Translations under genes and position numbers: made by a program
Assembly (NCBI GenBank): GCA_903821415.1
Contig: CAIJLF010000152.1
Location: 1 to 15,288, forward strand
Direction: 5' to 3'
DNA: 15,288 bases
Origin: an uncultured bacterium
GTDB taxonomy: Bacteria; Patescibacteriota; Minisyncoccia; Phycocordibacterales; UBA9973
Shown here: positions 819 through 15,288 of the stretch, in pieces
Position numbering within the stretch: the first letter of the stretch is position 1
Layout: every line of letters starts with the position of its first letter
Notes under the pieces: generated by a model
What the model saw: only the letters and a program-made list of their open reading frames with translations
What the model was told of the DNA's origin: nothing
Database searches by the model: none

Positions 819-1919
819 ATGAAAAATGAAAATAAATATGTATTAATAATGGCAGGTGGATCAGGCTCAAGGCTATATCCTCGTTCTACGGATAGTCTTC
901 CGAAACAATTTCAACAAATAGTAGGAGATAAAACGCTAATAGAGCAAGCTTATGAAAGAGCTAAAAAAGTAGTTGAGTTTGATCATATATATATATCATC
1001 AAATCATAAATACATAGATCTAATAAGGAAGCATCTACCAGAAATACCTGCAGAGAATTATATAACTGAACCAATAAAGAGAAATACAGGGCCAGCTATA
1101 TCTTTGGCGACTGCTCTTATCTACAAAAAAGATAAAGATGCAATCATCATAGTTACTCACTCCGACCATTTAGTAATAAAGACAGATGAATATGTAAAAG
1201 CCATAAAGACAGGAGTCAAAATAGTCAAAGAGAATTCTAAATATATCTTATGTATTGGTATTACACCAACTAGTGCACATACAGGCCTAGGGTACATAGA
1301 GAAGGATAAAATATTCAAAAAAACTGATGGTCTCGTCTCGTATAACACAAAAAGATTTGTAGAGAAACCAAACTTAGACTTAGCTAAACAATATGTTTCA
1401 TCTGGTAACTTTTTTTGGAATGCTGGATATTTTATATATCAGGCTAAAAACTTTTTGAGTGAATTAAAAAAGTTTAGCCCTAAGATCTATGAAGGTGTTA
1501 TTAAGATATCAGAATCGAAAGAAAGCAAAAATTTCTTAAAAATACTCGATAAAGAATTCCTTAAATTTGAGGATATTGCAGTAGATAATCTGATTATGGA
1601 GAAAACAAAAAATTTACTTGTTCTACCTGTAGAGATAGGGTGGTCAGATATCGGGAGTTGGGATGTCGTAGCAGATATGGTTAACGTAGGGGATAAAGAT
1701 ATAAATGGTAATTATTTTAAGGGGACTGTGATAAATATAGATACTCACAATACAACCATTTTCTCTCATGATAGCGAAAAGATAATAGCTACAATAGGCC
1801 TAGATAATTTTATAATAATCACCACAGAAAATGCGATAGTTATCGTTCCAAGAGGGAGGAGTGAGGATATCAAGAAAATTGTAAACGAAATAATACAAAG
1901 AGAAATAAAAAAGATTTAA
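819..1919 (+). CDS. manC: mannose-1-phosphate guanylyltransferase (GDP-mannose pyrophosphorylase)
   Basis: Makes GDP-mannose from mannose-1-phosphate and GTP, the donor for mannosyltransferases and for GDP-deoxysugars. The nucleotidyltransferase signature is near the N-terminus (GGSGSRLYP, residues 13-21, then PKQF at 28-31). Further family motifs are HSDH in the metal-binding loop, GITPT.. and TGLGYIE, FVEKP (180-184), FFWNAG (198-203) and GWSDIGSW (274-281). Length 366 residues matches the single-domain form; it lacks the C-terminal mannose-6-phosphate isomerase cupin found in bifunctional enzymes, and that cupin appears as a separate gene at 2644. The ATG at 819 sits directly below a good promoter and has no Shine-Dalgarno sequence. 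Two GH130 genes downstream could supply its substrate. Very sure of the family; mannose specificity is well supported by the motifs and by the cupin neighbour. Confidence 0.93.
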   Translation: MKNENKYVLIMAGGSGSRLYPRSTDSLPKQFQQIVGDKTLIEQAYERAKKVVEFDHIYISSNHKYIDLIRKHLPEIPAENYITEPIKRNTGPAISLATALIYKKDKDAIIIVTHSDHLVIKTDEYVKAIKTGVKIVKENSKYILCIGITPTSAHTGLGYIEKDKIFKKTDGLVSYNTKRFVEKPNLDLAKQYVSSGNFFWNAGYFIYQAKNFLSELKKFSPKIYEGVIKISESKESKNFLKILDKEFLKFEDIAVDNLIMEKTKNLLVLPVEIGWSDIGSWDVVADMVNVGDKDINGNYFKGTVINIDTHNTTIFSHDSEKIIATIGLDNFIIITTENAIVIVPRGRSEDIKKIVNEIIQREIKKI

Positions 1920-1925
1920 AAGATT

Positions 1926-2573
1926 ATGAATTTAAGTAAAATTAAAATTCCAAAACAAATAATATACATATACACATTTGCAGTTATTATAAACATATTA
2001 CGTGTTTTTCTTTTTGATAGTACGGCCTTTCTATATATATTATGGAATATAATACTAGCTACCATTCCTTTTCTTATAAGTTCTATACTTTTAATTTATA
2101 CAAGAAAAGAAAATATGATTAAACCCTTTTTTATTATAGGTTTTATACTCTGGCTCTTATTTTTACCAAATGCACCATATGTTATTACAGACTTTATACA
2201 TCTCGGGAGGATACACTCTGTACCGGTGATGTTTGATATATTCGTACTATTTAGTTCAGCATTGGTGTCTCTGCTTATGGGGCTTTATTCTCTGTTACAT
2301 ATGGAAAGGATGCTACTTTTGAAATATAGTAAAAAAATTACAAATATACTTATTGTAATAATTATACTAATTACAAGTTTTGGTATATATTTAGGGCGAT
2401 TTTTACGTTTTAATAGTTGGGATATTTTTACTAGTCAAAGCTCATTACTCTCTAGTATCTGGAAGATATTCACCCAGTCTAACAATTATGTAAATGTTTA
2501 TGGTTACACCGTATTATTCTTTGCTTTTATCTACATCTCGTATATTTCGTTTAAAAATAGTAAATTAGATTAA
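1926..2573 (+). CDS. DUF1361 multi-spanning membrane protein
   Basis: Integral membrane protein of 215 residues with about six hydrophobic segments (roughly 12-32, 37-58, 67-88, 101-125, 139-158 and 190-208). The family signatures of DUF1361 are clear: LPNAPYVITDFIHL at 80-93 and GIYLGRFLRFNSWDI at 153-167, the second with the conserved R-x-N-S-W-D. The molecular function of DUF1361 is not known; the conserved polar residues next to membrane segments suggest an enzyme or transport site rather than a simple anchor, but that is inference. It begins 6 nt after the manC stop with no promoter or ribosome binding site between, so it is almost certainly cotranscribed with manC. The stop is followed in frame by a second TAA. 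Confidence 0.82.
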   Translation: MNLSKIKIPKQIIYIYTFAVIINILRVFLFDSTAFLYILWNIILATIPFLISSILLIYTRKENMIKPFFIIGFILWLLFLPNAPYVITDFIHLGRIHSVPVMFDIFVLFSSALVSLLMGLYSLLHMERMLLLKYSKKITNILIVIIILITSFGIYLGRFLRFNSWDIFTSQSSLLSSIWKIFTQSNNYVNVYGYTVLFFAFIYISYISFKNSKLD

Positions 2574-2628
2574 TAATTATCACTAAAGGTTATTTGGGTA
2601 TATATTCATAGTCTTGTTTTCTTCAATG

Positions 2629-2637
2629 TGTTATAAT
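2629..2637 (+). promoter_or_regulatory. extended -10 promoter for the cupin gene
   Basis: TGT directly followed by a perfect TATAAT (2632-2637). I see no good -35 at 16-18 nt. The -10 ends 6 nt before the ATG at 2644, putting the predicted transcription start on the A of the start codon: a leaderless mRNA. Confidence 0.6.
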
Positions 2638-2643
2638 CGTATC

Positions 2644-3003
2644 ATGGAAAATGAAATAGAAATGGAAATATACCAAGAAGAAAGACCTTGGGGAAATTTT
2701 AGGAGATTTATAAACAACACTCTTTCTACTGTAAAAATAATAACAGTTAATCCGAACGAAGAGCTAAGCCTACAGAGTCACAATAAAAGAAGTGAATTCT
2801 GGAGAGTGATTAGTGGGAGTGGTACTTTTGTAGTGGGTGAAACTATCAATAAAGTTGAAGTTGGAAGTGAACAAGATGTTCCAGTTTTAGCTAAGCATAA
2901 AATGTCAGCAGGAGATAGTGGTATGCAGGTATTAGAAATCGGGCTAGGTGAGTTTGATGAGAATGATATAATACGTTACGAGGATAAATATGGCAGAGTT
3001 TAA
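2644..3003 (+). CDS. cupin, type II mannose-6-phosphate isomerase C-terminal domain, stand-alone
   Basis: Small cupin of 119 residues, the size and sequence of the C-terminal isomerase domain of bifunctional AlgA/ManC-type enzymes; expected to interconvert fructose-6-phosphate and mannose-6-phosphate using one divalent metal. It opens with the typical ERPWGNF. Metal ligands are visible as Q44, H46, E51 (LSLQSH....E) and probably H85 (AKHKMSAG). It ends with the family signature RYEDKYGRV. Start choice: a TTG at 2614 would add ten residues, but that stretch contains the TATAAT box of the promoter, so ATG 2644 is the start. The GH130 gene follows after 8 nt, in one operon. The usual fourth ligand region (IPAG..H) is altered to VLAKHKMSAG, so activity should not be taken for granted; a regulatory or different sugar-phosphate cupin is the alternative. 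Confidence 0.8.
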   Translation: MENEIEMEIYQEERPWGNFRRFINNTLSTVKIITVNPNEELSLQSHNKRSEFWRVISGSGTFVVGETINKVEVGSEQDVPVLAKHKMSAGDSGMQVLEIGLGEFDENDIIRYEDKYGRV

Positions 3004-3011
3004 TAATTTAT

Positions 3012-4322
3012 ATGGCTACAGTTGCAAATAAAAAAACTAAAAGTAAAGTAAAAACAATTTTTAAAAAAATTGTTTCATCCTCTGGGCCAGTTAAAAAAGT
3101 ATTAAAAAAGAAGGTTCTTTCAGATATTAAAACAAATAAAATTAAAAAAGTTCTAATAAAGAGAAATACAATTAAAACTTCTATTCCTAAAAATAAAAAG
3201 ATTATTAAGAATAAGCTTGTCTTAAAGAAGAAAAAATTTGTATCAAACAAAAAGAAATTAGAAAAAAAGGTTGAAAAGAAAGAACATATAACTCATAAAG
3301 AAGAAAAAGTTAAATTAAGAAAGGTTTCTCATAATCCGATAATTTCTCCAACTTTATACAGCTGGGAATCAAAAGCAACTTTTAACCCTGCGGCATTTGA
3401 GCATCAAGGTAAAGTTTATATCGTTTATAGAGCTATCGGGGAAGATGATTCTTCTGTCCTTGGATGTGCAGTGAGTTTAGATGGACTTAATATTGAAAAT
3501 AGATTAACACATTTTATATATAAAAGATTTTTTGAACTTGCTAAAGTAGGGGAGAAGATAGATTATGTCTCAGGAGGAGGGTGGAGCGGGGGATGTGAAG
3601 ACCCTAGAATAACATTGATAGATGACACTATATATATGCTATACAATGCATTTGATGGATGGGGTTCTATAAGAGTAGGACTAACATCTATAAAACTCAA
3701 TGATTTTACAAATAAAAAATGGAACTGGAAAAAAGGCGTATTGATTTCTCCCTTAGGTCAGAGGCATAAAAATTGGGTTCTTTTTCCAGAAAAAATAAAT
3801 AATAAATTTGTAATTCTTCACAATATTCATTCAAAAAATATTTCTAATGTAAGAGTGGAATATTTTGATAAATTAGATGAAGAAGATTTTAAAAATGCAA
3901 ATTTTGAAAGCCCAGATCCAAATGCATTACCAGACAGACCTTGTGCTTGGCATTCTCGTATGAGAAGTGTAGGACCACCACCAGTAAAAACTAAAATTGG
4001 ATGGCTTGTATTGTATCATGCTATGGGGATAAATGAACCGAATAAATATAAGCTCGGAGCAATGATACTAGATCTAAAAGACCCTACAAAGATTTTATAT
4101 CGTTCAAATTCTCCAATACTTGAACCAGATGAAGTGTATGAGAAAAGAGAACACCAGGGGATTGTATATTCTTGTGGCGCTGTTATTAAAAATAAGAAAT
4201 TATATGTATATTATGGTGGGGGAGATAAGTTTGTTTGTGTTGCCTCAATCCCTCTACAGGAACTAGTTGATAGTATGAAAAAAGATAAAATTATTAAACT
4301 AAAGAATACTAAAAGTATTTAA
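3012..4322 (+). CDS. GH130-family glycoside phosphorylase/hydrolase with lysine-rich N-terminal tail
   Basis: Five-bladed beta-propeller protein of family GH130 (older name: DUF377, PH1107-related glycosidase). GH130 members cleave beta-1,2- or beta-1,4-mannosides, most by phosphorolysis yielding alpha-mannose-1-phosphate, some by hydrolysis. The domain covers about 105-428: HNPIISP (107-113), FNPAA (124-128), GCEDPRI with D197 as the likely catalytic acid, LFPEK, PPVKTKIGWLVLYH, and YYGGGD near the end. There is no signal peptide, so it is cytoplasmic. Residues 1-105 are low-complexity, with 38 lysines and only six acidic residues, and contain no alternative ATG, so the tail is probably translated. 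It shares an operon with the cupin upstream and the double GH130 gene 12 nt downstream. Substrate, and phosphorylase versus hydrolase, cannot be fixed from sequence alone. Confidence 0.85.
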   Translation: MATVANKKTKSKVKTIFKKIVSSSGPVKKVLKKKVLSDIKTNKIKKVLIKRNTIKTSIPKNKKIIKNKLVLKKKKFVSNKKKLEKKVEKKEHITHKEEKVKLRKVSHNPIISPTLYSWESKATFNPAAFEHQGKVYIVYRAIGEDDSSVLGCAVSLDGLNIENRLTHFIYKRFFELAKVGEKIDYVSGGGWSGGCEDPRITLIDDTIYMLYNAFDGWGSIRVGLTSIKLNDFTNKKWNWKKGVLISPLGQRHKNWVLFPEKINNKFVILHNIHSKNISNVRVEYFDKLDEEDFKNANFESPDPNALPDRPCAWHSRMRSVGPPPVKTKIGWLVLYHAMGINEPNKYKLGAMILDLKDPTKILYRSNSPILEPDEVYEKREHQGIVYSCGAVIKNKKLYVYYGGGDKFVCVASIPLQELVDSMKKDKIIKLKNTKSI

Positions 4323-4334
4323 AATAAATAATAT

Positions 4335-6275
4335 ATGTATGTAGTTAAAAGATCAGATCATAACCCTATATTAGTTCCCAATAAAAATCATTACTGGGAG
4401 GAATTTGCTACATTTAACTTGTGTCCTGTTCAAAAAGGAAATAAGATTTATGGATTTTATCGTGCTATCTCTGCTGTGGATAAAATATTAAAACAGCAAC
4501 AAGTTTCAATCATAGGGAAGGGAGTAAGTAATATGAGTGGAATTCATTTTGATAATCGTGAGCCTTTTATCGTTCCCGAAGAACCTTGGGAGGTTCACGG
4601 ATGTGAAGATCCCAGGGTAACCTTCTTTGAAGGTAAGTATTATATCTTCTACACAGCTCTCTCGGGATTCCCATTTAAGGCTGACAATATAAAAGTAGCA
4701 GTTGCTGTCACTAAGGATATGAAAAAAGTGGATGAGCGTCATCTCGTAACAAACTTTAATTCAAAAGCAATGACTCTTTTCCCTGAGAGAATTAACGGCA
4801 AAATCACAGTTATTTTCTCTGCTCATACAGATATGCCTCCTGCCAAGGTCTGCATAGCTCAATTTGATAATATAGAACAGCTATGGGATGAGTCGTACTG
4901 GACAAAATGGGAAAAGGAAATAGATACTCATGTTGTTGATTTTACTCGTAATTCTTATGACCATTTAGAAGTAGGGGCTCCTCCTGTAAAAACAAAATAT
5001 GGATGGCTTTTAGTTTATTCTCATATTCAAAACTATTTTCCTCATCCAGACAATTTAGATCGTATTTTTGGTATAGAGGCATTGCTTCTAGATATTGATG
5101 ACCCCACGAAAATAATAGGAAGAACCAAGGGTCCTATACTTGCTCCTGAAGAATCTTACGAGCTTTCTGGGTATATCGCAAATATTGTTTTTCCTACAGG
5201 AGCATTGGTCAAAAAGGATACTTTAAGTATTTATTATGGCGCAGCTGATACGACTACCTGCGTCGCATATGTAAATCTTACAGACCTTATCTCGAGTATG
5301 TATGTAAAGACTGCAGAGGAATGGAGCTTCAAGCGTAGTCCGACAAATCCTATAATAAGTCCAAAGAGCGAAAATAGTTGGGAGGCTACAGCTACCTTTA
5401 ACCCAGCTGCAGTTTTACTCGATAATAAGGTTCACATTTTATATCGTACTCTTTCTAGTGATAACACTTCGTATCTCGGATATGCTATGAGTAAGGATGG
5501 AATAAATATAGACGAGAGATTAAATGTTCCTATCTATTCTCCTAGAGAAGATTTTGAAATGAAAAAAGTTACGAATGGAAATTCAGGGTGTGAAGACCCA
5601 CGTATTTCGCAGATAGGGAAGAAGTTATATATATGTTATACAGCATATGATAGTATAGGCCCACCTCGTGTCGCGATAACGTCTATAACAAATAAAGATT
5701 TTCTTGAACACAAATGGAACTGGAGTAAGCCTATACTGATAACTCCTCCTGGCTTTGATGACAAGGATACTTGTATATTCCCTGAGAAATTAAAAGAAGG
5801 GTACTTTGTTTTGCATAGAGTCGGGAATGAAATCTGTGGAGATTACTTGAGAACCCTAAATTTTGAAAATGATGTTATTAAAAAATGTATCCGTATTATA
5901 GGGCCAAGGTTTAATTCATGGGATGGTCTCAAGGTTGGAATATCTGCTCCTCCTATTAAAACAAAGTATGGATGGGTACTGCTTTATCATGGAGTTTCAA
6001 AAAGTCACAATACGTACAGAGTTGGAGTTTTACTTCTCGACTCAAAGGACCCTGCTATAGTACTCGCTCGCTCTTCTGATGCAATTTTTGAACCAGAAAC
6101 TGATTATGAAAAAGTTGGAATAGTGAATAATGTAGTCTTCCCTTGCGGAATGGTACTAAAGGATGATCTTCTGTATATATATTATGGTGGGGCTGATAAG
6201 GTAACAGGTGTCGCTACTATGAAGCTTTCAAACTTGGTAAGCGCACTCGTGAGGGGTTCAAAGCTGGGAGAGTAA
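4335..6275 (+). CDS. tandem double-GH130 protein (two fused mannoside phosphorylase/hydrolase-type modules)
   Basis: A 646-residue cytoplasmic protein made of two complete GH130 beta-propeller modules. Module 1 is about residues 1-320: HNPILVP, ATFNLCP, HGCEDPRV with D92, LFPERI, GAPPVKTKYGWLLVY, YYGAAD. Module 2 is about 328-640: TNPIISP, ATFNPAA, SGCEDPRI with D421, IFPEKL, APPIKTKYGWVLLYHG, YYGGAD. Both keep the ED-P-R catalytic motif, so neither looks dead. Module 2 is closer by eye to the single GH130 upstream (FNPAA, GCEDPRI, KWNW) than module 1 is, which points to successive duplication and divergence. Ordinary GH130 enzymes are about 300-390 residues with one module. The two modules may act on different linkages or ends of one polymer, or one may synthesise and the other degrade (inference). 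Last gene of the operon; a hairpin terminator follows at 6310. Confidence 0.85.
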   Translation: MYVVKRSDHNPILVPNKNHYWEEFATFNLCPVQKGNKIYGFYRAISAVDKILKQQQVSIIGKGVSNMSGIHFDNREPFIVPEEPWEVHGCEDPRVTFFEGKYYIFYTALSGFPFKADNIKVAVAVTKDMKKVDERHLVTNFNSKAMTLFPERINGKITVIFSAHTDMPPAKVCIAQFDNIEQLWDESYWTKWEKEIDTHVVDFTRNSYDHLEVGAPPVKTKYGWLLVYSHIQNYFPHPDNLDRIFGIEALLLDIDDPTKIIGRTKGPILAPEESYELSGYIANIVFPTGALVKKDTLSIYYGAADTTTCVAYVNLTDLISSMYVKTAEEWSFKRSPTNPIISPKSENSWEATATFNPAAVLLDNKVHILYRTLSSDNTSYLGYAMSKDGINIDERLNVPIYSPREDFEMKKVTNGNSGCEDPRISQIGKKLYICYTAYDSIGPPRVAITSITNKDFLEHKWNWSKPILITPPGFDDKDTCIFPEKLKEGYFVLHRVGNEICGDYLRTLNFENDVIKKCIRIIGPRFNSWDGLKVGISAPPIKTKYGWVLLYHGVSKSHNTYRVGVLLLDSKDPAIVLARSSDAIFEPETDYEKVGIVNNVVFPCGMVLKDDLLYIYYGGADKVTGVATMKLSNLVSALVRGSKLGE

Positions 6276-6341: not shown

Positions 6342-8123
6342 ATGGAAAAAGATAAAGACTATTCAAATTTACATAGAAGCCTAGTACTTAAATACTACTG
6401 GCAAGTTATCAAACGATTTAAGATATCGTTTTTTGCCTTTATCTTTTTTATTATTCTGGTTTCTATTATGGATGTTTATATTCCATTCCAGTTTTTAAAA
6501 CTTTTCAATATATTCCTTACTAATAATTTCTCTTTCGTTAAACAAGCTCAAAATCTCTTTCTTTTTATTTTTGCTCTGAAAATATTTAGTTGGGGACTTA
6601 GAAGAGCTATTGAGTTCACTGACTTTTATTTTGTATCACACGTCGATGCAGGACTAAGACAGCAAGCCTTTTCATCAATGATGAAACATTCAAAATCTTT
6701 TTTTGCTAATAATTTCAGTGGATCATTGACTCAGAAAATAAATAAATATATAAAGGCTTTTGAAAAGCTAAATGATAGGTTTATAAGAGATGGAGTTGCC
6801 TTGGTAGTTAAATCTATCGGTACAGTTTTTGCTATTTTTGTATTAATACCTAAATATTCATTAATGCTTGGTGTTTTCTGTTTTGTATTTTTATTAACAG
6901 CAATGCTCTATACAAGATGGAAACTAAAATATGATATAAAAGCAGCATTATCTGATACTAAAACACACGGAGCACTAGCTGATTCTATAAGTAATCATCC
7001 ATCAGTTCAATTTTTTGCTGGGCATGAATACGAAAATGAAAGAATAAAAGAAGTTGTCGCAGAGCAACAAAAAGCTTATTTATTTAATTGGAATTTGTGG
7101 GGGTTACTTGGTACTATTCAGGGATTTCTTATTTTGATTATTGAGTTTGTTATTTTTTGGTATGCGATTGGAGACTGGAAGCTAGGTTTAATAACCCTTC
7201 CTATCATTGTTCTAATCCAAAATTATCTTGGTCGACTAGTAGAAAACCTATGGGATTTTGCTTCTATAACAAAAGCTTTCTATGAAGCCTTTTCCGATGC
7301 ACAAGAGATGGCCCTCATAATGGAGTTACCTTATGAAATTAAAGATGGGGACAAGGAAACCTTGAATAATGTTAAAGGAGAAGTAGTTTTTGAAAATATT
7401 ACTTATATTTATGATCAAAACAATACAAAAGTTTTTGATGATTTTTCTCTAACTATTCCGGCAGGACAGAAGATAGCTCTAGTCGGGACTTCGGGTGCAG
7501 GGAAATCAACTTTTGTGAATCTTTTAATGAGATTGTATAATCTGACTGCGGGCAATATATTAATCGATGGTATTGATATTAGTTCTGTTTCCCAGAAAAA
7601 TCTACAAGAAAATATAGGATTTGTACCGCAAGATCCAGCTTTGTTTCATAGAACATTGATGGAGAATATCAGATATGGAAAGCGTGGAGCATCAGATGAA
7701 GAAGTGATAGAAGCTAGTCGTTTGGCAAATTGTGATAAATTTATAAATAAATTACCACTTGGTTATTATACTTATGTAGGAGAGAGAGGTATAAAGCTTT
7801 CAGGAGGGGAGCGCCAAAGAGTAGCTATCGCAAGGGCTATTTTAAAAAATGCACCGATATTAGTTTTAGATGAAGCAACTTCAGCCTTGGATTCAGAGTC
7901 AGAAATGTTGATTCAGGAAGCACTTCAAAATTTGATTAAAAATAAAACAACAATAGTTATAGCTCATAGACTCTCGACTGTCCGCGCGATGGATAGAATA
8001 ATAGTCATAGAAAACGGAAAGATAGTGGAAGATGACAATCATAGCGAACTTCTAGAAAATAAAGATGGTATATATAAAAGACTTTGGGATATACAGTCTG
8101 GAGGATTTGAAAACGAAAATTAA
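6342..8123 (+). CDS. ABC exporter half-transporter (fused membrane and ATPase domains)
   Basis: Type IV-fold ABC exporter of 593 residues, acting as a homo- or heterodimer in the cytoplasmic membrane to export lipids, drugs, peptides or glycoconjugates. Residues about 25-330 form the six-helix membrane domain; about 365-590 form the nucleotide-binding domain with every catalytic motif intact: Walker A GTSGAGKST (382-390), Q-loop Q430 in VPQDP, signature LSGGERQ (486-492), Walker B ILVLDE (D510, E511), H-loop H542 in IAHRLST. No fused peptidase domain. It has its own promoter and is closed by the palindromic terminator at 8122, so it is monocistronic. Position after the mannose block may mean export of a mannose-containing product, but substrate class cannot be read from this sequence; multidrug or lipid flippase (MsbA/LmrA-like) is equally possible. 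Confidence 0.9.
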   Translation: MEKDKDYSNLHRSLVLKYYWQVIKRFKISFFAFIFFIILVSIMDVYIPFQFLKLFNIFLTNNFSFVKQAQNLFLFIFALKIFSWGLRRAIEFTDFYFVSHVDAGLRQQAFSSMMKHSKSFFANNFSGSLTQKINKYIKAFEKLNDRFIRDGVALVVKSIGTVFAIFVLIPKYSLMLGVFCFVFLLTAMLYTRWKLKYDIKAALSDTKTHGALADSISNHPSVQFFAGHEYENERIKEVVAEQQKAYLFNWNLWGLLGTIQGFLILIIEFVIFWYAIGDWKLGLITLPIIVLIQNYLGRLVENLWDFASITKAFYEAFSDAQEMALIMELPYEIKDGDKETLNNVKGEVVFENITYIYDQNNTKVFDDFSLTIPAGQKIALVGTSGAGKSTFVNLLMRLYNLTAGNILIDGIDISSVSQKNLQENIGFVPQDPALFHRTLMENIRYGKRGASDEEVIEASRLANCDKFINKLPLGYYTYVGERGIKLSGGERQRVAIARAILKNAPILVLDEATSALDSESEMLIQEALQNLIKNKTTIVIAHRLSTVRAMDRIIVIENGKIVEDDNHSELLENKDGIYKRLWDIQSGGFENEN

Positions 8124-9267: not shown

Positions 9268-10185
9268 TTATTTTTTGTTATTATTAATAGACTTGACAAT
9301 AAAGAACCCGATGATTATAAAAGTTATGATAGGTGATATATAAGAAGGTATCTCTACTCCAAATGCATCCATCATCATAATAATCCCTAGAACGAAAATA
9401 GAATACATAGCACCATTCTTCAAATAAGCATACTTTTTAATACGATCAATATTGCCTATTGTTAACTTCCTTAAAACGAAAGCTCCAAGTCCATTCCCTA
9501 ATATAATAAGGGGGACGGAAAGAGTGAAAGCAAAGGCACCGAGCACTCCATCTATAGAGAAAGTCATATCTATTATTTCTAAATACAATATCTTACTAAT
9601 GTCAGACATTTTATTGTCTGATGAGAGTAGTGCCTTTTCACCCTTTTCAGCATTTTCTTTGAATCCGTGAGTAATGAAAAATGCTGTTGATCCGATGACG
9701 GCAGAGAAAGCGAGCATTGGATTAATCTTGATCGCATACCATACAACTGTCGCTAAGAGTATTGATACTACAGCAAAAAACCAAACACCATTGGCTTGGA
9801 AGAATCTCTCATGTCTGAGACCGAAGTTCTTTGTTTCAAGAAATAGCCAGTGAAAGAATAGAAATACTAGAAATATACCTCCACCTAGAAGTAGTATAGG
9901 AGCTGACTTATGGACTGCGTCTAAAATACTAGGGTCATTTGAAAATGCTGCAGTGAGAGAGCCCATAAATCCTAATGAAGGCATAGTCGCCCAAATGATA
10001 GCCCAAGGGAGAAGTCCACGAACGACAAAGACAGCAAAGAAAAATCCATATAAAAGAAACCATTTTCTTCCTTTTTTACCCATTGTACCTAATACTTCAG
10101 CGTTTATAACCGCGTTGTCTATACTACTGATAATCTCAAAAAGACAAAGACCTAAAATTGTAATTATTATTGTTCCTGTTGTCAT
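9268..10185 (-). CDS. DUF475 (TerC-like) integral membrane protein
   Basis: Multi-spanning membrane protein of 305 residues in the DUF475 family, related to TerC and the LysE-type transporters. Two pseudo-symmetric acidic membrane motifs mark it: FEIISSIDNAVINAEVL (16-32; E17, D23, N24) and LEIIDMTFSIDGVLGAFAF (202-220; E203, D206, D212). TerC relatives act in metal-ion (manganese, calcium) handling and metalation of exported proteins; the paired acidic residues are consistent with cation binding, but no function is established for DUF475 itself. It is the first gene of a two-gene minus-strand operon with the metallophosphoesterase, which is a metal enzyme, so a metal-supply role is tempting but unproven. 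The ATG lies 7 nt from the -10 box, implying a leaderless mRNA. Confidence 0.88.
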   Translation of the reverse strand: MTTGTIIITILGLCLFEIISSIDNAVINAEVLGTMGKKGRKWFLLYGFFFAVFVVRGLLPWAIIWATMPSLGFMGSLTAAFSNDPSILDAVHKSAPILLLGGGIFLVFLFFHWLFLETKNFGLRHERFFQANGVWFFAVVSILLATVVWYAIKINPMLAFSAVIGSTAFFITHGFKENAEKGEKALLSSDNKMSDISKILYLEIIDMTFSIDGVLGAFAFTLSVPLIILGNGLGAFVLRKLTIGNIDRIKKYAYLKNGAMYSIFVLGIIMMMDAFGVEIPSYISPIITFIIIGFFIVKSINNNKK

Positions 10186-10192
10186 ATATCGT

Positions 10193-10200
10193 ATTATACA
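10193..10200 (-). promoter_or_regulatory. -10 box of the DUF475 operon promoter (minus strand)
   Basis: On the minus strand TG is directly followed by TATAAT (10198 down to 10193). The box ends 7 nt before the DUF475 ATG (10185), so the predicted transcription start leaves a leader of 0-1 nt. No clear -35 element was found. Confidence 0.55.
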
Positions 10201-11740: not shown

Positions 11741-14083
11741 ATGCCTTCAAAAAAGAAAGTGCTAAGTGTTAAAAAAGAAATAAAAAAGGTCATAGAAAAA
11801 AGAGAAGAGGCTGTCGAAAAAAAACCAAGTAAGAATATTTTTATTAAAAGCGTTATAAAGAGAGATGGAGTTTCTGTCCCTTTCGACCTTGATAAAATCG
11901 CGAATGCTGTTAATAAAGCTATGCTTGCAAGTGGTGAAGGATCAATGAAGGAAGCAGAGATGGTGGCTAATAGGGTGATGATGGAAATCGTCAAAATAGC
12001 CAAGAAATATAAGAACTTTATCCCAACAGTTGAAGGCGTCCAGGATACAGTCGAGCAAGAATTGATGCTCTCGGACTTTGTTAAAACATCCAAGAATTAT
12101 ATTCTCTATCGTGAAGAGAGAGCCCGTCTACGATCTCATAGTGTAGTCGTTCCTCCTCATGTAAAAAAACTTGCAGATGAAAGTAAAAAGTATTTTAGAA
12201 ATCCACTTTCTGAATTTGTTTACTATCGTTCATATGCAAAATGGATAGAGGAAGAAGGAAGACGCGAGACTTGGGTAGAGACCATCGATAGATATATGGA
12301 CTTCATGAAAAGCAAGATAGGTAAGATGCTGAAAGAAGGAGAGTACAGTGAGATACGCGAAGCTATACTAAAGCAAGAAGCAATGCCATCAATGAGGCTT
12401 TTACAGTTTGCAGGACCTGCAGCTGATAAGACCAATGTCTGTGCCTACAACTGTTCATTCGTAGCACCATCAAAATTTGAAGACTTCGGAGAAATAATTT
12501 ATATATCAATGTGTGGGACAGGAGTAGGATTCTCAGTTGAAAGTAAAAATATACAATCTCTACCACAGATTAAAGTTCAAGGGAATAAAAAGCTTCCTGT
12601 TTATATCGTACCAGATACAAAGGAAGGATGGGCTGATGCTTTTGTTCTCGGTATGAAGACTTGGTTCAATGGGGAAGATGTTGATTTTGACTTCTCTTTG
12701 CTACGTCCTGCAGGAGCAAGACTTAAAATAATGGGAGGAAAGAGCTCTGGACCTAAGCCTTTGATAGACTTACTCGGATTTACGAGAGAGCGTATTTTAC
12801 GTAGACAAGGAAGACACCTTCGTAATATAGATGCCCATGATATCATCTGTAAAATAGGTGAATGTGTAGTTTCTGGAGGGGTTCGTCGTAGTGCCCTTAT
12901 ATCTCTTTCTGACTTAGATGATTCTGATATGCGTGATGCAAAGAACGGACAATTCTGGAACAACGAAGGACAAAGAATGCTCGCCAATAACTCCGCTGTT
13001 TATAATGTAAAGCCAACAGAAACAGAATTCCTAAAAGAATGGATTGCCCTTATGGAGTCAGGTTCCGGCGAAAGAGGTATCTTTAACCGTGAATCTCTAT
13101 ATAAGACTTTACCAAAACGAAGAATAGAAAAGTCTGCTAATTATATCGGAGAGATGGGGACAAATCCTTGCGGAGAGATTATTCTTCGCTCAAGACAGTT
13201 CTGTAATCTATCAGAAGTGGTTGCTCGAGCAGAGGATACAGAGGAAGATCTAATGAGAAAAATAAGAGTAGCTACAATACTAGGTACTTATCAATCAACA
13301 CTTACAAAATTTGGTTACTTGTCTAAGGAATGGAAAGAAAATTGTGAAGAAGAGAGGCTCTTGGGTGTATCTGTAACAGGACAGTGGGATTCAAAACTTT
13401 CTCGTGACCCAGATATGCTAAAGAAGCTTCGTCTAGAGGCAATACGTGTAAATAAAATATATGCAAAGAGATTTGGTATAAGTGAGTCAACTTGTATAAC
13501 GGCAGTGAAGCCTTCTGGAACAGTATCTCAGACTGTAGACTGTGCTTCTGGAATGCATCCTCGTCATGCACCTTACTATATACGACGTATCCGTATTTCA
13601 GCTACAGATTCACTGTTTAAAATGATGAAAGATCAAGGAGTCCCTTATCACCCAGAGGTAGGACAGAGTCACGAAGATGCAAATACTTTTGTTCTAGAAT
13701 TCCCAATGAAGGCACCAGAGGATGCAATTTGTAAAGATGATATTTCTGCCCTAGAACAGCTTGAACACTGGAAAGTTGTAAAAGTTAACTACACAGAGCA
13801 CAATCCTTCTGTAACAATATCTGTAGGGGAGAATGAATGGATACAAGTAGCTCACTGGCTATACCAAAACTGGGATATAGTAGGAGGACTATCATTCCTA
13901 CCAAGAAGTAACCATGTATACCAGCTAGCTCCTTATGAAGCTATTGATGAAAAGACTTACAAAGATCTTATAAGTAGAATGCCAGACTTTGACTTCTCTA
14001 AAATAGTAACTTATGAACTACGTGATGAGACTGAAGTAAAAAGAGAACTAGCGTGTGTCGCAGGAGTTTGTGATATAGTCTAA
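11741..14083 (+). CDS. nrdJ: class II adenosylcobalamin-dependent ribonucleoside-triphosphate reductase
   Basis: Reduces ribonucleoside triphosphates to deoxyribonucleotides using a thiyl radical generated from adenosylcobalamin, in the cytoplasm. Order along the 780 residues: a lysine-rich tail (1-31), an ATP-cone regulatory domain (about 32-125, VIKRDGVSVPFDLDKIANAV), then the ten-stranded barrel. Key residues: C238 in YNCSFV (C234 is nearby) and C488 in RQFCNLSEVV as the redox pair, C477 in NPCGE as the thiyl cysteine with E479, phosphate-binding KPSGTVSQ, and the C-terminal shuttle pair CVAGVC (C772, C777). The 11-residue step C477-C488 and the tail pair match the monomeric Lactobacillus-type RTPR (C408, C419, C731, C736). 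This enzyme needs B12, matching the S-component-like gene 9 nt downstream and the cobalamin riboswitch beyond. No class I or III reductase is in the window. Confidence 0.95.
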   Translation: MPSKKKVLSVKKEIKKVIEKREEAVEKKPSKNIFIKSVIKRDGVSVPFDLDKIANAVNKAMLASGEGSMKEAEMVANRVMMEIVKIAKKYKNFIPTVEGVQDTVEQELMLSDFVKTSKNYILYREERARLRSHSVVVPPHVKKLADESKKYFRNPLSEFVYYRSYAKWIEEEGRRETWVETIDRYMDFMKSKIGKMLKEGEYSEIREAILKQEAMPSMRLLQFAGPAADKTNVCAYNCSFVAPSKFEDFGEIIYISMCGTGVGFSVESKNIQSLPQIKVQGNKKLPVYIVPDTKEGWADAFVLGMKTWFNGEDVDFDFSLLRPAGARLKIMGGKSSGPKPLIDLLGFTRERILRRQGRHLRNIDAHDIICKIGECVVSGGVRRSALISLSDLDDSDMRDAKNGQFWNNEGQRMLANNSAVYNVKPTETEFLKEWIALMESGSGERGIFNRESLYKTLPKRRIEKSANYIGEMGTNPCGEIILRSRQFCNLSEVVARAEDTEEDLMRKIRVATILGTYQSTLTKFGYLSKEWKENCEEERLLGVSVTGQWDSKLSRDPDMLKKLRLEAIRVNKIYAKRFGISESTCITAVKPSGTVSQTVDCASGMHPRHAPYYIRRIRISATDSLFKMMKDQGVPYHPEVGQSHEDANTFVLEFPMKAPEDAICKDDISALEQLEHWKVVKVNYTEHNPSVTISVGENEWIQVAHWLYQNWDIVGGLSFLPRSNHVYQLAPYEAIDEKTYKDLISRMPDFDFSKIVTYELRDETEVKRELACVAGVCDIV

Positions 14084-14092
14084 TAATTAATT

Positions 14093-14614
14093 ATGAAAAA
14101 TAAGCTTAAATACATAATCGCCTTTTTGACTGTCTTTACCTTTAGGCTTATGCCATTTAGGGCTCCAAATGTCGAGCCAATAATGGCATTTATAATGCCT
14201 TTTGGAAAAGTATATGGTGGCTTGATGGCTTTTATCTTTGGATTTTTAAGTATTGCTTTGTTTGACTCTGTGACTTCAGGCTTCGGTATCTGGACACTAA
14301 TAACAGCTTTAGCTTATGGTCTACTAGGACTAGGAGCAAGCTATTATTTCAAGAAGAGAAGTGGCTGGAAAAGTTATGCAAGCTATGCATTTATAGCGAC
14401 TATCTTCTACGATGTAGTAACAGGATTAACTATAGGTCCGCTATTCTTTCATCAGTCATTTATGGTGTCTTTGATAGGGCAAATTCCTTTCACTGTACTT
14501 CATTTGCTAGGTAACGTATCTTTTGCTATAGTTCTATCACCAGTTATCGAAATATGGGCAAAGAAAGAATTTGCTGCTTCTCTCTTGAAAGAGAAAGTAT
14601 TAGTTGTAAGTTAA
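14093..14614 (+). CDS. ECF-transporter S-component-like membrane protein, probable cobalamin uptake
   Basis: Small integral membrane protein of 173 residues with about five or six hydrophobic segments, the size and pattern of an energy-coupling-factor (ECF) substrate-binding subunit. Visible features are FRLMPFRAPNVEPIMAFIMP (17-36), a glycine-rich second segment, FDSVTSGFGIWTLITA (57-72), and a repeat-like FYDVVTGLTIGPLFFH (105-120). It starts 9 nt after the nrdJ stop with no promoter or terminator between, so it is cotranscribed with a B12-dependent enzyme, and a cobalamin riboswitch follows 24 nt after its stop. Taken together, cobalamin or a precursor is the likely substrate. The ECF ATPases and T subunit are not in the window and would be shared components elsewhere. 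Assignment to ECF S components rests on overall pattern, not on a decisive motif; another small transporter family is possible. Confidence 0.62.
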   Translation: MKNKLKYIIAFLTVFTFRLMPFRAPNVEPIMAFIMPFGKVYGGLMAFIFGFLSIALFDSVTSGFGIWTLITALAYGLLGLGASYYFKKRSGWKSYASYAFIATIFYDVVTGLTIGPLFFHQSFMVSLIGQIPFTVLHLLGNVSFAIVLSPVIEIWAKKEFAASLLKEKVLVVS

Positions 14615-14637
14615 TTGTATATTAAAATTTTAAATCT

Positions 14638-14740
14638 AAGTATTTGGAAGTGAGGTGAGATTCCTCCACTGTGCCGCAACGGTAATACTCGAAAGAGGTA
14701 AGTCCGGTCTTAATACTTTGATGTTTCCCGAGCAGGAGAA
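14638..14740 (+). ncRNA. cobalamin riboswitch (compact, Cbl-II/AdoCbl-variant-like)
   Basis: B12-sensing leader of the DUF4430 gene. The conserved core is unmistakable: GAGGTGAGATTCCTC (14652-14666), CACTGTGCCGCAACGGTAA (14667-14685), then AAGTCCGG (14700-14707). P1 closes the core: AAGTATT (14638-14644) with AATACTT (14712-14718). After P1 comes a small hairpin TTCCC-GAGCA-GGAGAA (14725-14740, one bulged A) whose loop GAG, plus the flanking C, can pair with CTCG at 14688-14691, i.e. the L5-L13 kissing loop of cobalamin riboswitches. The large P7-P11 arm is absent, as in the class II (hydroxo-/methylcobalamin-preferring or variant) types. Where its transcript starts is unclear; read-through from the nrdJ operon is possible. 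Confidence 0.88.
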
Positions 14741-14762
14741 TATATTTATTTATATGTGGTTT

Positions 14763-14802
14763 AAAAGCCCCTCCGACTCAAATCGGAGGGCTTTTATTTT
14801 TT
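14763..14802 (+). terminator. riboswitch-controlled intrinsic terminator
   Basis: AAAAGCCCCTCCGA (14763-14776), loop CTCAAA, TCGGAGGGCTTTT (14783-14795): a 13-bp stem with one bulged C, then a T-run. It lies between the cobalamin aptamer and the DUF4430 start codon, so it is the likely expression platform. CCGACT in its left arm (14773-14778) can also pair, with one bulge, with AGTCCGG of the aptamer core (14701-14707): a possible antiterminator in the ligand-free state (inference). Confidence 0.85.
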
Positions 14803-14816
14803 AATTCCATAAACAT

Positions 14817-15288
14817 ATGAAAAAAAATCATACCAAAGTTATAATAATAGTTTCATTATCTATCCTACTTATTGTCAGTCTTTCCCCCCATTTTAATTCC
14901 TCTAAGAATTATCAAAAAATAGATTTGAAAATAAATCCTAATTCTATAATTTCAAATAAAGTAGAAACTAAAATTGAAGCAAAGGTGAATTCTCAAGCTA
15001 ATTATTTAGTAGAGAATAAGTCAAAAAATATAGAAGTTTCCTTAATGGTTTTAGATAAAACATACAGTATTGAAGTTCCAGAAAACTCTTCAGTTTTTGA
15101 TGCTATGAAGAAAATAGAAGAAGAAAGTACAAAAGATAATTCATTTAGTTTTAAATATAATGAACATTTAGGATTAGGTGCTTTTATAAATAGTATCGAT
15201 GGAATAGATGGAGAACCAGGCAAATATTGGATTTATTATATAAATAATAATAAAGCATCGATTGGGGTTTCAAAATATGTTTTAAAAA
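14817..15288 (+). CDS. signal-anchored DUF4430 (transcobalamin-like) protein, 3'-truncated
   Basis: Surface protein expected to bind cobalamin outside the membrane. 157 residues lie in the window; there is no stop before the right edge. Residues 1-25 (MKKNHTKVIIIVSLSILLIV..) are a signal peptide or N-terminal membrane anchor; there is no lipobox cysteine. A polar, variable spacer follows (about 26-80). The DUF4430 domain starts near 82: VSLMVLDKTYSIEVPENSSVFDAMKKIEEE, then FSFKYNEHLGLGAFINSIDG, then KYWIYYINNNKASIGVSKYVL. The last part, W-x-Y-Y-x-N...A..GVS.Y.L, is the family signature; DUF4430 resembles the C-terminal domain of transcobalamin and intrinsic factor. Perhaps 10-20 residues are missing unless another domain follows. 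It sits directly under the cobalamin riboswitch and terminator, so it should be repressed when B12 is plentiful. Confidence 0.86.
   Translation, partial: MKKNHTKVIIIVSLSILLIVSLSPHFNSSKNYQKIDLKINPNSIISNKVETKIEAKVNSQANYLVENKSKNIEVSLMVLDKTYSIEVPENSSVFDAMKKIEEESTKDNSFSFKYNEHLGLGAFINSIDGIDGEPGKYWIYYINNNKASIGVSKYVLK

Follow-up and report, generated by a model that had tools for sequence, protein, structure and literature searches.

The nrdJ locus and its cobalamin riboswitch

The window analyzed here, 15,288 nucleotides long, is the entire contig CAIJLF010000152.1 from the 712-kb, 92.8% complete genome of an uncultured Patescibacteriota bacterium (GCA_903821415.1), and its plus strand ends in a row of genes and regulatory elements with probable ties to vitamin B12. 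The row begins with nrdJ (11741 to 14083), encoding a 780-aa ribonucleotide reductase (RNR) of the monomeric, ribonucleoside-triphosphate reductase (RTPR) type that is predicted to depend on adenosylcobalamin (AdoCbl). Nine bases after the nrdJ stop lies a gene (14093 to 14614) for a 173-aa protein modeled as the substrate-binding (S) component of an energy-coupling factor (ECF) transporter and likely to import corrinoid. After another four bases come an AdoCbl riboswitch (RF01482; 14619 to 14750), a hairpin with a T-tract (14769 to 14790) that is likely an intrinsic terminator acting as an attenuator, and the gene for an N-terminally anchored DUF4430 protein (14817 to 15288), of the SLBB type found at the C terminus of transcobalamin. 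As the window spans the complete contig, the DUF4430 gene runs off its end, and sequence downstream of it is missing. A sequence-only reading of this DNA had listed the same features (nrdJ, an S-like gene 9 nt downstream, riboswitch with terminator, and anchored DUF4430 protein), and all are present and placed as it described. We interpret them as part of a B12-scavenging module, comprising capture and import, that would feed class II RNR in a B12-auxotrophic, Nomurabacteria-like cell of the Paceibacterota; judged from sequence, we give this reading a probability of about 0.8.

The nrdJ product exceeds the Pfam cut-offs for an ATP cone, RNR_Alpha, the RNR barrel, and the B12-RNR insertion domain; PF21995 (the insertion domain), PF17975, and PF02867 all score above cut-off, as expected of an RTPR-type class II sequence, and TIGR02505 matched in three stretches at 288 bits, under its model cut-off of 340. 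The DUF4430 match (PF14478) reached 42.7 bits against a cut-off of 23.8 despite the truncation, and inspection of the sequence revealed an N-terminal hydrophobic anchor and no lipobox.

The riboswitch scored 67.6 bits (gathering threshold 50; E = 6.5e-11) and was aligned with 13 riboswitches of relatives. A riboswitch of the cobalamin clan (RF01482, RF01689, or RF00174) was found at gathering threshold just 5′ of DUF4430 at 22 of 29 scanned DUF4430-bearing loci of relatives, or 23 of 30 with the window, bearing out the proposed association of the two. A second scan at lower stringency took in four of the seven misses and gave matches in three; the remaining misses (L075, L089, and L098) lay outside it. 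Two further riboswitches follow S or PduO genes at the edges of contigs (L079 and L093), where DUF4430 would come next. The rest of the scanned loci, which total 509 kb and were all selected around S or DUF4430, gave no cobalamin riboswitch. The region holds one terminator-type site against 2.1 in shuffled sequences, a number no rarer than chance, so that support for the hairpin comes from its position and from the fold energy of 14700 to 14812 (z = −2.5). A terminator pattern follows the riboswitch in 18 of 24 cases, counted without a shuffled control. With only four bases between it and the S gene, the riboswitch is probably reached by transcription that starts farther upstream, which would make it an attenuator within the operon.

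Conservation in the family and B12 economy

Among 99 family genomes, we counted the S component in 53, DUF4430 in 47 (one of which, G065, falls under the family cut-off), the c3 toroid protein described below in 43, nrdJ in 66, and a PduO-type adenosyltransferase in 56. The nrdJ count retains homologues reaching beyond the ATP cone and drops 20 of 86 matching genomes whose matches were confined to the cone or its surroundings; it includes split or partial genes (G063, G086, and G088) and a copy that contains two stops (G043). The toroid count takes, from 55 matching genomes, those whose matches overlap the toroid (residues 277 to 545), with G000 counted through a paralogue.

All 53 S-positive genomes carry nrdJ, none of the 33 nrdJ-less genomes has S, and DUF4430 accompanies S in 46 of 47 genomes, the lone exception being 77% complete. 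At 42 of the 46 loci examined, S and nrdJ share a strand and lie no more than 700 bases apart. The exceptions are G001, which has a remote homologue, and G039, G054, and G057, in which the gene ahead of S belongs to a ligA cluster (Pfam was run on the G057 copy). For the seven S genomes outside the locus set, coordinates put S beside nrdJ in G040, G086, G087, G090, and G098 and not in G075 or G094. Both orders, nrdJ-S and S-nrdJ, occur, and in the latter the adenosyltransferase gene usually follows nrdJ; in G055 (L071, approximately 10045 to 10195), a tandem repeat with a 7-base, gaattaa-like unit separates nrdJ from the S gene. The predicted linkage of nrdJ, S, and DUF4430 is thus conserved in relatives. 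The idea that the last three elements (S, riboswitch, and DUF4430) form the module is supported as to a probable capture and import route; its boundaries shift, with nrdJ and S forming the constant pair and a large transcobalamin-like protein lying outside the window. Distances of the four module proteins correlate across genomes (r from 0.28 to 0.68; Mantel test, at most 1 in 500 permutations reaching the value), which fits joint inheritance but also plain kinship, the P values overstating independence because the genomes are related.

The expectation that such cells cannot make B12 is supported for one late step only: CobS was found in 0 of 99 family genomes in a search that, of the corrinoid genes, took in CobS and PduO. 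No PduO was found in the window's own genome. Import of the BtuCD type was considered as a general route and set aside, as FecCD matched in only 4 of 99 genomes, partially and at 24 to 31 bits. From the one late pathway step and the small genome, the cell likely depends on imported corrinoid. Of the three outcomes that the sequence-only reading named as refuting it, none turned up in these tests, which sampled B12 synthesis at a single late step and compared S components by profile and structure.

The S component and the surface proteins

The S protein matches PF07155 at 35.4 bits (cut-off 26.7), and its AlphaFold2 model predicts the six-helix ECF S-component fold. NCBIfam S-component models stay far under cut-off (18 of 99 bits). 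Its named homologues come mostly from Nomurabacteria and other Paceibacterota, with one record labelled Bacteroidetes; our placement of the host follows from them. When the PDB was searched with a profile of 22 diverse members, CbrT was the sole S component matched (E = 0.014, and 0.22 with a profile built mostly from close relatives), which points tentatively to CbrT. Comparison by hhalign with an alignment of four CbrT homologues gave 97.5%, a value obtained without a control family, and 16 conserved columns are common to both, including R18, N26, P29, G65, W67, T68, Y75, H137, G140, and N141. Homologues also occur outside the family (L143, 1495 to 2043; L142, 1498 to 2043), that of L143 matching DUF6580 above cut-off, which suggests that DUF6580 is related to S components. 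No nrdJ or DUF4430 was found within the 3.5 kb examined around the S homologues of the out-of-family genomes G112 and G241.

Given the rest of this reading, we lean slightly toward an S component that works without a classical ECF motor. None of the 99 family genomes, the window's own included, had EcfT (PF02361) above cut-off in a search of metagenome-assembled genomes with a single profile that did not extend to the ATPases EcfA and EcfA′; one match below cut-off, in G054, carries three stops. Among 14 controls the profile passed in 9. In a sample of 239 genomes from the phylum it passed in 2, both of which lack this S component; the latter occurs in five of the 239: three already in the family set and two without EcfT above cut-off. 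No annotated neighbor cluster of the relatives is T-like, some clusters having been left unannotated. In helix 1, an AxxxA-type motif of small residues is what we take to be the EcfT docking site, and two of its positions hold A, G, or S in 4 of 4 CbrT homologues but in only 2 of 22 and 3 of 22 S-family members (0% and 3% of 65). The undetected EcfT makes a solitary S component more likely, and together with the missing helix-1 motif it favors one.

Two points weigh on the other side. CbrT does not support growth of E. coli on B12 without the ECF module (PMC5997447), and the EcfT negative comes from PF02361, with the ATPases outside the search. The module may therefore serve B12 with a classical ECF subunit, its T protein and ATPases being too diverged for PF02361 or borrowed from another ATP-binding cassette (ABC) transporter. 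The modeled S fold is intact, CbrT is the nearest solved relative by sequence, an exporter-type ABC gene lies upstream in the window (6342 to 8123) and in some relatives, and elsewhere in helix 1 small residues are common (18 of 22 at the position eight before R18), so that the docking motif may have shifted. In view of the counts for PF02361, the near absence of CbrT's two small residues, and the lack of a T-like gene among the annotated neighbors, we nevertheless regard this alternative as less likely than not.

The gene that follows DUF4430 in relatives encodes a secreted protein joining DUF4430 to an alpha/alpha toroid, both within one protein at L071, which is the transcobalamin architecture with the domain order swapped. 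Among 65 homologues of this protein, DUF4430 matched in 46 and a toroid model in 59; the 65 were taken from 120 listed homologues (447 found) largely for coverage, a choice that favors DUF4430 matches. The model of the toroid protein P0146 predicts a beta-rich domain at residues 33 to 155 where Pfam gives no DUF4430 match, the structural comparison having covered the toroid only. The DUF4430/toroid profile matches transcobalamin-1 in the PDB (E = 7e-4), and DUF4430 is the counterpart of the C-terminal clade of transcobalamin (PMC1796856). Terpene cyclases are nonetheless the toroid's closest folds and sequences, and some homologues bear surface Ig-like repeats, so that these proteins might act on terpenoids or polysaccharide, for example, and be merely B12-regulated. 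The riboswitch placement, the match to transcobalamin, and the position of DUF4430 next to a CbrT homologue in four plasmid loci examined make this improbable; moreover, D.DD, presumably the class II cyclase motif, stands at the conserved DD site in just 7 of the 64 homologues having that site, though it occurs somewhere in 15 of 65.

The window's own genome has a toroid protein without DUF4430 on another contig, C122 (L119), which we considered as the missing downstream gene and rejected: it has its own upstream region and only short, chance-like matches (at most 14 bases exact) to the window end, and it is treated as a paralogue. This protein (1259 to 3106) carries a peptidoglycan-binding domain, and beside its gene an open reading frame (3480 to 4328) combines a helix-turn-helix (HTH_17, weakly MerR) with a B12-binding domain (29.1 bits, cut-off 32.1); its product is possibly a CarH-like corrinoid regulator. 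At L071 (5670 to 6606) and several same-genus loci, thioredoxin-like CPHC and DsbB-like proteins are encoded 3′ of the toroid gene, where they perhaps serve disulfides in the secreted clasp.

Import of riboflavin, folate, or another vitamin by an S component that merely neighbors nrdJ appears still less probable: PF07155 carries a riboflavin label, 13 of 22 members weakly match the riboflavin model PRK13661 (the window member at 18 bits of 99), FolT and RibU are among the best structural matches, and three genomes have ligA-linked copies, but S is absent from every nrdJ-less genome, the nrdJ-S pairing is kept in two gene orders, PduO shares the cluster at many loci, and CbrT is the one S component reached by sequence. 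Riboflavin specificity, as suggested by the Pfam label, was set aside: CbrT gives a match of its own to PF07155, at 22 bits and thus under the cut-off, and the context points to B12. Fold was dropped as a guide to substrate, since structural comparison of the S model alone did not separate substrates.

Elsewhere in the window, a minus-strand gene (9268 to 10185) encodes a TerC/DUF475 membrane protein whose homologues (cluster c13, nine members) lie near nrdJ in several relatives. Two successive GH130 genes (3012 to 6275), the second with two GH130 stretches, follow genes for a ManC-type nucleotidyltransferase (819 to 1919) and a mannose-6-phosphate isomerase-like cupin (2614 to 3003), together a mannose/mannoside block.

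Known counterparts and a proposed route

The pairing of DUF4430 with an S component, put forward as new in the sequence-only reading, has precedent: lactobacilli carry nrdJ, DUF4430, CbrT, and PduO together, and secreted transcobalamin-like B12 scavengers of bacteria were predicted in 2007 (PMC1796856), so the module is of a known kind. The published nrdJ-cbrS-cbrT-pduO cluster of Lactobacillus delbrueckii likewise joins nrdJ, an S component, and PduO in a B12 auxotroph; it differs in that CbrT requires a shared ECF module (PMC5997447), whereas EcfT was not found in the family studied here. Gene order suggests that cbrS is a DUF4430 gene. The row in Lactobacillus intestinalis is nrdJ, DUF4430, S component, and PduO, and that on a L. 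plantarum plasmid is nrdJ, PduO, DUF4430, and S component; on two enterococcal megaplasmids DUF4430 overlaps the S gene, with no nrdJ annotated within 6 kb on either side. At the related plasmid loci L147 and L148, as in the family studied here, a DUF4430 gene adjoins the S gene, and S-component motifs are common to both. No cobalamin riboswitch reached threshold at L147 to L150, in contrast to the window and its relatives, and the DUF4430 protein of L148 is small, with a lipobox-like LAGC. No toroid gene is annotated over 12 kb there, whereas relatives of the window have the toroid.

In the 2007 prediction, by Burroughs et al., the B12 scavengers are secreted proteins with an SLBB domain alone or joined to a toroid, often in paralogous pairs near CbiO/CbiQ (PMC1796856). 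Those proteins resemble the Paceibacterota ones (here PF14478) in secretion, toroid fusion in either order, operon paralogue pairs, and hosts usually without key B12 synthesis enzymes. They differ in their hosts and neighbors, being described as common among planctomycetes and low-GC Gram-positives and as lying near CbiO/CbiQ (PMC1796856); the Paceibacterota genes have nrdJ and the S component as neighbors and no detectable CbiQ. Transcobalamin, intrinsic factor, and haptocorrin share the alpha/alpha toroid and DUF4430-like beta-grasp domain of the relatives' protein, which differs in having DUF4430 first, low identity, and a bacterial surface location. BtuM of Thiobacillus denitrificans, which shows that a solitary S component is possible, resembles the window protein in its fold, its B12 substrate (predicted here), and the lack (here apparent) of an ECF module in its host, but it has an invariant cobalt-ligating cysteine (PMC6072759), whereas the window protein has no cysteine. 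Counted by eye, cysteine occurs in helix 1 in 15 of 22 S-family members and nowhere in 5 of 22, and none is invariant.

In the B12-scavenging reading, two DUF4430 proteins would clasp corrinoid at the cell surface in the manner of transcobalamin and intrinsic factor, the S component would bind it and move it across the membrane, the adenosyltransferase would convert it to AdoCbl, and NrdJ would use AdoCbl to make deoxynucleotides (dNTPs). At high AdoCbl levels, the riboswitch would stop transcription ahead of the capture genes, leaving nrdJ and S expressed. Surface capture, together with trapping once corrinoid is inside the cell, could drive uptake without an ECF motor. The full ECF-free route, in which a two-protein transcobalamin-like clasp hands corrinoid to a solitary S component, with neither motor nor BtuM's invariant cysteine, pulled by adenosylation and NrdJ binding and with the riboswitch tuning only the capture half, is a tentative proposal that we hold at somewhat less than even odds.

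We found no earlier description of the module in Patescibacteria in the open-licence PMC literature. As far as that literature shows, what is new is its occurrence in Paceibacterota, the combination of a clasp pair and AdoCbl attenuator with nrdJ, and the apparent lack of an ECF motor. Bacterial transcobalamin-like proteins now share a setting with nrdJ, a gene for an adenosyltransferase, and a riboswitch for AdoCbl, a context not found in the excerpted 2007 prediction. If true, the ECF-free route would provide another type of solitary B12 S component in addition to BtuM, and the module offers a defined gene set for asking whether a surface clasp lets an S component import B12 without an ECF motor. 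It suggests how an uncultured, probably B12-auxotrophic family of Paceibacterota gets the cofactor underlying its DNA synthesis.

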